A stretch of 64,000 nt of DNA from Natronospira bacteriovora (GTDB lineage: Bacteria; Pseudomonadota; Gammaproteobacteria; Natronospirales; Natronospiraceae). The stretch is taken from positions 1 through 64,000 of the forward strand of contig NZ_JAVDDT010000009.1 in the NCBI RefSeq assembly GCF_030848495.1. The letters run 5' to 3'. The notes under the pieces were generated by a model that had not been told where the DNA came from, made no database searches, and worked only from the letters and a program-made list of their open reading frames with translations. The position numbers and the translations under genes are program-made. This document shows positions 5,685-42,472 of this stretch, in pieces; position 1 is the first letter of the stretch, and each line of letters starts with the position of its first letter.

Positions 5685-6316
5685 CAGTGGCTCCGGCGGC
5701 TGACGGCGTTGTCGTCGGGGGTGATGCCCATGGCTTCCAGCTTGCGCCGGGCGCGCGGGCTGCCGGTGCGCATCCAGGTCTCGTAGAGACGCAGGATGTT
5801 CTGCTCGGAATTGCCGTGGGCCATGCGCCCGACTTCGGCCAGCACGTCCATGAAGGCGGTGAATTTCTCGGCCAACTCCCGGAAGACTTCATTCACTTCC
5901 AGCTGCTCGAAGCTGCGTGGCGGGCTTGCGGCCAGGCTGTTGTAGGCCGCACCACCCATGCCGGCGTAATAGTCCACGTCCACCGCCTTGCGGCTGAGGC
6001 TTTCGGCAAAGTAGCCGGCAATGAACAGGGCCACATCGCCCAGGCGTTGCAGCTGCTGGCGCCGCAGTCCTTCGGAGGGAGATTCCATGGCATCACGATA
6101 GAGGAAGGCCAGCGGTTTGAGGTTGCGGCCTTCCTCGGTGATTTCATAGAGGCTGTCGCTGCGGGCGTACTGCAGGAGCACGCCGGCGAGATAGTTGCCG
6201 GTCTGCTGTTCGGCCTGGATGTCGTTGCGGCTCAGGGCTTCCCTCACGGAGCCCCGGAACCAGCTCTCCAGGTCGTTGACGGTGAGAAGATCGCTGTCCT
6301 GTTCGTGGCCGCTCAT
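5684..6316 (-). CDS. Hypothetical protein, first gene of a two-gene unit
   Basis: A 210-residue, mostly helical, soluble protein of unknown function. I start it at the ATG at 6314-6316 because GGAGGT lies at the right distance upstream. A longer frame to 6439 adds a cysteine- and arginine-rich tail that looks non-coding. The gene ends in an ATGA overlap with the next unknown gene. Nothing in the sequence points to a substrate or partner beyond that coupling. Confidence 0.75.
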   Translation of the reverse strand: MSGHEQDSDLLTVNDLESWFRGSVREALSRNDIQAEQQTGNYLAGVLLQYARSDSLYEITEEGRNLKPLAFLYRDAMESPSEGLRRQQLQRLGDVALFIAGYFAESLSRKAVDVDYYAGMGGAAYNSLAASPPRSFEQLEVNEVFRELAEKFTAFMDVLAEVGRMAHGNSEQNILRLYETWMRTGSPRARRKLEAMGITPDDNAVSRRSH

Positions 6317-41833: not shown

Positions 41834-41923
<90 letters not shown>

Positions 41924-41932
41924 TATCTGGAT

Positions 41933-41965
41933 CGGGGCCGTCACAAAAAGACGGCCCCGTTTTTT
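41933..41965 (+). terminator. Rho-independent terminator after tRNA-Ser
   Basis: A perfect 10-bp stem (CGGGGCCGTC with GACGGCCCCG), a 7-base A-rich loop, then six T residues. Confidence 0.92.
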
Positions 41966-42014
41966 CTTCGAAGTCGTATTCGAACCCACGGTCCATCAAC
42001 AATCGGGTTTGAAC

Positions 42015-42275
42015 GGATTGCCGGGAGCAATCCATCGCGAGGGACAAAGTTCCGAGTCCGGAACGTAGTGGAGGATGAGGCGCAGGGATGCGCCGGACAA
42101 TGGATTGCCGGGAGCAATCCATCGCGAGGGACAAAGTCCCGAGCCCGGAACGCAGTGGAGGATGAGGCGCAGGGATGCGCCGGACAATGGATTGCCGGGA
42201 GCAATCCATCGCGAGGGACAAAGTCCCGAGTCCGGAACGCAGTGGAGGATGAGGCGCAGGGATGCGCCGAACAAT
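42015..42275 (+). repeat. Three tandem copies of an 87-bp structured repeat downstream of tRNA-Ser
   Basis: Units at 42015-42101, 42102-42188 and 42189-42275 are nearly identical (only a handful of substitutions). Each unit contains three short hairpins in order: GGATTGC/GCAATCC, GGGAC/GTCCC and GGCGCA/TGCGCC. The array starts about 90 bp after the tRNA and runs straight into a copy of the tRNA 3' end at 42273-42294. Because 87 is a multiple of three, several frames stay open through it, but they look like shadows. The arrangement resembles the tRNA-associated repeats downstream of E. coli tyrT. Confidence 0.93.
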
Positions 42276-42294
42276 CCCACCCTCTCCGCCATAT
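42273..42294 (+). repeat. Duplicate of the tRNA-Ser 3' end (22-bp direct repeat)
   Basis: The 22 bp from within the T arm to three bases past CCA (41905-41926) occur again, identically, at 42273-42294. The two copies are 368 bp apart and enclose the terminator and the 87-bp repeats. A second hairpin follows this copy just as a terminator follows the tRNA. This is either an att-like footprint of a past integration or a duplication product of the tRNA tail. Confidence 0.9.
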
Positions 42295-42296
42295 AT

Positions 42297-42330
42297 CGAA
42301 GGGGCCGCCTGGCATCAGGTGGCCCCTTCG
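42297..42330 (+). terminator. Second hairpin after the duplicated tRNA tail
   Basis: CGAAGGGGCC-CCTG with CAGG-GGCCCCTTCG forms a strong stem with one mismatch-like interruption and a 4-base loop. Only a weak T tract follows (TCATTT), so termination is possible but not certain. Confidence 0.55.
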
Positions 42331-42472
42331 TCATTTCGAAGCCCCATTCGAACCCGCGTTCTCTCAGTTCGACCACTCGTCCCCAATCTGCCACCATCCA
42401 CAGTGTGAAACTGGAAAGCAGGGTTAAACTGTACGATATTGAAATCAAGGCCAATGGCCAGGCGATGCGCGG

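Follow-up and report, generated by a model that had tools for sequence, protein, structure and literature searches.

What are the three tandem units that stand behind a tRNA-Ser(TGA) gene of Natronospira bacteriovora, and how did they come to end in a copy of that gene's own tail? In the window, by which we mean the whole stretch of 64,000 nucleotides that was analysed (contig NZ_JAVDDT010000009.1, positions 1 to 64,000 of the forward strand), TRF finds four tandem arrays, and the best score (494) belongs to an 87-bp repeat at 42015-42275 with 3.0 copies and 97% matches. The copies are spaced 87/87 and share 95.3–97.7% pairwise identity, in agreement with an earlier reading made from the letters alone (the sequence-only reading), which had described a triple, nearly identical repeat of 87 bp. 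DNA-level searches located additional copies next to tRNA genes of the host genome. Since blastn of the unit came back nearly empty among relatives, with one further genome found in 94 besides the host, a covariance model (R1) was needed, and it was built from nine copies of the host genome. The features of the locus are as follows, with R1 scores given for the units.

41834..41923, plus strand: intact tRNA-Ser(TGA) with encoded CCA (ARAGORN; Rfam RF00005, 62.8 bits)
41905..41987, plus strand: 83-bp module, copy 1, made up of T-loop AATCCC, tRNA 3′ end, T1 and an inverted T-arm half, ATTCGAACCC
41933..41965, plus strand: terminator T1, a stem of 10 pairs (9 GC) with a T run (41933-41959 in the terminator scan)
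41973..41994, minus strand: inverted partial repeat of the tRNA's T-arm and variable arm, with 91% complementarity to 41891-41912
42005..42012, plus strand: GGGTTTGA, the 5′ half of a second T-arm, with the insertion point directly 3′
42013..42098, plus strand: element unit 1, with hairpin 2 disturbed (R1 95.5 bits)
42100..42185, plus strand: element unit 2 (R1 97.9 bits)
42100-42122, 42128-42140 and 42166-42181, plus strand: hairpins H1, H2 and H4 of unit 2, the H4 loop being AGGGAT at 42171-42176 (fold and pair counts)
42187..42272, plus strand: element unit 3 (R1 101.4 bits)
42273..42355, plus strand: 83-bp module, copy 2, made up of an exact 22-nt tRNA-tail copy, a diverged terminator region and ATTCGAACCC
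42297..42330, plus strand: hairpin of 15 pairs at the T2 place (−32.4 kcal/mol over 42290-42335)

The array starts 90 nt downstream of the tRNA gene and is flanked on either side by the 83-bp module of tail, terminator and inverted T-arm half. At its right end, AATCCCACCCTCTCCGCCATAT at 42273-42294 equals 41905-41926 exactly over 22 nt, 19 of them tRNA, and the repeats do run into a copy of the tRNA 3′ end, as had been read from the sequence. The array sits within the T-loop of a second, partial tRNA copy, in the order GGGTTTGA, units, AATCCC at 42273. The hairpin at the T2 position has no T run, and the terminator scan of the window did not call it a terminator. Open frames traverse the array because 87 = 3 × 29; no evidence of coding was found.

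The unit is dispersed in the host genome. R1 gives 25 matches there at E ≤ 1 and 24 at E ≤ 0.01, the match at C2:253308 (E 0.078) being excluded from the host-genome counts. Ten of the 43 tRNA genes carry the element, namely Ser-TGA (three units), Ser-CGA, Ser-GCT, Gln-CTG (2), Lys-CTT (2), Arg-ACG, Arg-CCG, Arg-CCT (three units), Val-GAC and Thr-CGT. At eight further loci, away from tRNAs, it lies within simple repeats of (CGACAA)n type, and these copies form a second subfamily of 85 bp, the nine copies of which are 82–100% identical with unrelated distal flanks. The 87-bp unit thus occurs off tRNAs as well; it does not derive from a tRNA but represents one member of a dispersed family. The idea of a tandem duplication derived from the tRNA tail, raised by the sequence-only reading, holds for the flanking 83-bp module and fails for the unit itself.

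Several other features accompany these loci. Simple repeats, (GAGTTCT)n and (CGACAA)n, are plentiful between host genes (L031 2780-2850, L032 2500-2690, L044-L055), and some (CGACAA)n arrays in the host genome have no element. A second dispersed repeat of ~130 bp, a long inverted repeat around GTGGGAAACAGGGATGTTTCCC, accompanies the element at two loci, where it is found close to element copies or immediately after them (L008, minus strand, about 5840-5990; L054, from 1585). At G000 C7:158451-159440 (L029, L189), csrA (PF02599, 90.3 bits) immediately precedes tRNA-Ser(GCT) and tRNA-Arg(ACG), each with an element copy behind it; the gene order csrA-serV-argV is that of E. coli.

The element is 65–90 bp long and consists of four hairpins, with an NNGGA loop in H1, mostly GNA loops in H2 and H3, and an ANGGAN loop in H4. 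Three small hairpins per unit had been noticed at first; covariation raises the number to four, the second being disturbed in unit 1. Among the nine own-genome copies, 93.7% of cells are paired and 16 of 25 pairs have changed at both positions; none of 500 shuffles does as well, and when the structure is slid out of register, pairing is 41% at most. In an alignment of 91 copies, which had been fitted to the structure, the corresponding values are 92.7% of cells, 20 of 25 pairs and at most 47%. The H1 and H4 stems differ in sequence among copies, whereas the GGA of their loops is retained. At the orthologous Lys locus of the congener G001, H1 differs in four of its nine pairs, each of them compensated. 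Folding energies of single units are modestly below those of shuffles (z −1.8 to −2.7), and the whole 422 nt folds better than shuffles (z −5.75), but covariation is the stronger structural support. The scarcity of G-U pairs (~20 of ~1800 paired cells) was considered as a sign of DNA-level selection and dropped as non-discriminating; in the tRNAs at these loci, G-U pairs make up 5/517 in acceptor stems and 21/360 in T-stems. GNA loops are very stable in DNA, and their presence in H2 and H3 is noted here without being decisive for a DNA-level reading.

The family extends well beyond the genus. At class level, R1 finds it in 75 of 370 sampled genomes and 65 of 273 genera at E ≤ 0.001, a lower bound given the strict filters, and at order level in 12 of 19 genomes at E ≤ 0.01. 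A phylum-wide search matched 18 of 299 genomes, 13 within the class (host included) and five outside it, the latter weakly (E-values 2.5e-4 to 9.4e-4). A strict pattern search of genome contigs returned four records, from Sulfuricaulis, Candidatus Muproteobacteria, Dokdonella and one gammaproteobacterium. Searches of low sensitivity gave no plasmid or phage relatives (blastn of the unit) and no matches in viral contigs (one exact pattern), and the five blastn matches listed for E. coli are all tRNA. The sequence-only reading had named a lack of similar repeats near the tRNAs of relatives as part of what would refute it; such repeats are present beside tRNAs in many relatives, so this condition does not refute it.

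The insertion sites follow a pattern. We surveyed 167 copies at 150 sites, from 68 + 60 locus sources picked from the matches listed and thus not all of them. GA closes the left flank at 119 of the 150 sites (background ~6.5%) and AA opens the right flank at 106 (background ~6.6%); among the 86 sites without strict tRNA linkage, the counts are 60 and 62, respectively. The usual site reads TTCGA^AATCC and belongs to an incomplete second T-arm; at 64 of the 150 sites a flank matches a portion of an intact tRNA close by. Unit-unit junctions in the window array lack GA, so the GA belongs to the target and not to the unit. Nine (CGACAA)n copies have ACA on the left instead of GA. Other tRNA sites lie in anticodon loops of tRNA-Ser copies (L061, L086, L103, L134) and in a D-arm (L082); the former are partial tRNA-Ser copies, split in the anticodon loop and located upstream of the intact gene. 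Joining the flanks restores a full tRNA at three of the 150 sites (L094, L115, L116). At four loci (L096, L107, L109, L131) element copies appear to lie within protein-coding sequence.

Orientation follows T-loop residue 59. Among distinct genome-tRNA pairs, 41 copies are sense and one is antisense where this residue is A, and none is sense and seven are antisense where it is G, C or T (Fisher p 9e-8, n = 49 pairs, not all independent by descent). For this table, nine of the 64 linked sites were omitted because their left flank is not in the T-loop, and the rest collapsed to the 49 pairs. Where residue 59 is not A, the sense strand has no GA^A and the antisense strand has one. The 41 of 42 sense copies at tRNAs that permit both orientations are not predicted by a pure target rule; this excess could stem from selection that favours co-transcription, or from a target preference finer than the rule describes.

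The same locus can be compared within the genus. In G001, tRNA-Ser(TGA) is followed by one unit, 61% identical to window unit 2 and flanked by two exact copies of the 83-bp module; in G002, it has one tail, one terminator and no element, an absence that could reflect loss. The end points of the module are identical in the two element-filled genomes, the host and G001. No exact, dated jump was caught. The duplication of tail and terminator around the single element of G001 (L182, contig C48) is exact over its 83 bp and hence either recent or homogenised. An inverted tRNA-tail copy also follows tail and terminator at L184, L186 (G002) and L008, giving a long palindrome over the tRNA 3′ end even without an element.

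Taken together, we read the array, with a probability of roughly 0.62, as a three-unit copy of a gammaproteobacterial family of hairpin elements that includes rrA, rrB, rrF and probably rtT, and that is non-autonomous and mobile-like. The element is found 3′ of (T/C)GA and ahead of AA(Y). Its favourite target is the tRNA T-loop TTCGA^AAY, but it also occupies GA^A-like positions, both in anticodon loops and within simple repeats. An insertion at a tRNA is accompanied by another, incomplete copy of the gene's 3′ end together with its terminator; the intact tRNA is thereby kept and the element comes to lie between two terminators, where it would be tolerated because a complete tRNA remains alongside. 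The palindromic stems, the strand-specific insertion and target sites with no clear duplication point to an intermediate that is single-stranded and folded and to a trans-acting enzyme, and it is in this sense that we infer mobility. No mobilising enzyme was found.

One candidate for such an enzyme is a Y1 transposase of IS200/IS605 or RAYT type, which would move the element in trans and make it REP-like. The element resembles the products of IS200/IS605-type chemistry in its hairpins, in inserting 3′ of a short motif in one orientation and in leaving no clear duplication of the target, and Y1_Tnp occurs in 62 of 75 genomes that have the element and in 192 of 295 that lack it (odds ratio 2.6, p 0.003, uncorrected for kinship or genome size). 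However, 13 of the 75 positive genomes have no Y1 match, and the sole Y1/RAYT-like gene of the host is flanked by a different hairpin repeat. IS608-type geometry has a guide sequence at the left end, and H1 begins so close to that end of the element that no space is left for one; we regard this candidate as unlikely. Less probable still is local tandem duplication only, in which slippage copied tail and terminator and the 87-bp units arose between them by chance. It would fit the module duplicated in the window, and exactly so in G001, as well as the tandems of 213 bp at Lys and 194 bp at Arg-CCT in the host genome, but it is already disfavoured by an element with covarying stems at ten host tRNA genes and in non-tRNA repeats. 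We give still less credence to the idea that the tRNA 3′ end preserves a remnant of the site where an integrative element was once attached. The T-loop is a known integrase site, and the breakpoint there with its displaced 19-nt tail resembles an attR; against this, none of the five neighbouring genes tested encodes an integrase, and the element is gene-free and also found in non-tRNA repeats.

A further alternative, doubtful in our view though it has more in its favour than those above, is a selected small-RNA gene, in which RNA made by read-through of T1 titrates CsrA/RsmA and couples it to tRNA transcription, the three units multiplying the binding loops. GGA is present in both the H1 and H4 loops of 151 of 159 distinct copies, in a sample biased by having been gathered with R1, itself built from GGA-loop copies; each window unit has 7–8 GGAs, and CsrA is encoded in the host genome. 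In E. coli, RrA/B/F are reported to arise by T1 read-through and to bind CsrA by way of GGA motifs; RrB is processed and binds CsrA with a KD of ~100 nM, binding that is lost when three GGAs are changed (PMC8144298). The excess of sense copies at tRNAs permitting either orientation also agrees with such a gene. On the other side, within the same biased sample GGA loops are kept equally well in antisense copies (9/9) and in those not strictly linked to tRNAs (92/96), where such transcription is unexpected, and no promoter-like site was found. Moreover, the other 19 E. coli TLRs are reported to have CsrA-binding scores under 0.01 (PMC8144298). Returning to the family of mobile-like elements, the small-RNA explanation overlaps with it for sense, tRNA-linked copies. 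Placed between T1 and a second hairpin, these are well placed for T1 read-through and probably transcribed by it, and by analogy with RrB the resulting RNA with its GGA loops may bind CsrA; three units together would present six such loops.

The rules for target and orientation are new, and so is the extent of the family; the literature searched, which covered few subscription papers, held no earlier account of them. The GA^AA T-loop rule, orientation by residue 59 and the copies off tRNAs make the origin of TLRs a testable question, and the family would tie the CsrA network and the architecture of tRNA genes to a mobile repeat. A wider proposal, which we advance tentatively, is that a mobile element without genes, spread across the class, gave rise to the E. 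coli TLRs, including that of rrnB T1-T2, as copies that are now fixed; the element would insert as a folded strand at GA^AA, have in the T-loop a safe harbour by tail rebuilding, and bring CsrA-binding loops into tRNA and rRNA operons.

The rrnB T1-T2 segment is carried on many plasmids, and R1 matches it in E. coli K-12 between T1 and T2 (44.6 bits, E 4.8e-9), where the rrB sequence runs GTAGGA/CAAATCCGCCGGGAGC...CCAT/AAACTGCC. According to PMC8144298, E. coli TLRs have been known since 1978 and comprise 22 genes spread over ten K-12 loci, with 18–19 bp of the upstream gene at their ends; function is given there only for rrA/B/F, and RrA/B/F are reported from 31 species of 12 genera, exclusively Enterobacteriales. 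The window array lies downstream of a tRNA gene, its 3′ end repeats 19 nt of tRNA-Ser where the TLR definition asks for 18–19 bp identical to the end of the upstream gene (PMC8144298), and R1 relates it to rrB. By location, tail and model match it is a member of the TLR family, with the variant features of three units within one tail and of antisense and non-tRNA relatives. It shares with rrA, rrB and rrF (rrnA, rrnB and rrnD, T1-T2) the four hairpins and the 3′-end copy of the upstream RNA gene, and rrB, which lies between terminators, has CGGGA and AGGA loops. Unlike the window array, these stand behind 5S rRNA as a single unit of 72 bp; for the two-terminator subtype that they represent, the window offers a clear T1 and a strong second hairpin without a T run.

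The parallel with E. coli rtT drawn by the sequence-only reading turns out to be one of family, through the R1 match to rrB and a full-length match of the Rfam RtT model (RF00391) to a relative's copy, which at 35.1 bits is under the gathering score of 45; in the window the model reaches 14.5 bits against the same 45. RtT (tyrT rttR) shares the plan GGTTCGA[hairpins]AATCC-tail, in E. coli rttR AAGGTTCGA[hairpins]GAGTAATCC-tail, and the preceding inverted T-arm half. It differs in that each unit, 178 bp long, has its own tail and that its loops are without GGA. The R1 search did not find rtT itself; on Rfam similarity and plan, rtT is probably a family member. AaHKsRNA22 of Aggregatibacter (RF02902) matches relatives' copies over its full length at 28–33 bits, below its gathering score of 39.8, and is not among the matches listed for the window. 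Sponges of the CsrB/RsmZ type share several loop GGAs per RNA, and their Rfam models stay below gathering in the window (RsmV 12.7 vs 100; PrrB_RsmZ likewise); the array differs from them in being tied to tRNA genes. The single Y1/RAYT-like gene of the host (L085, G000 C5:201536-201865) lies between hairpin repeats of its own, TGTGGGAGAGGCTTTAGCCTCG, and not between copies of the element, which would flank it if they were its REPs. REP/BIME sequences with RAYT share with the element the form of short, dispersed intergenic hairpins, whereas the element has the tRNA T-loop as its target.
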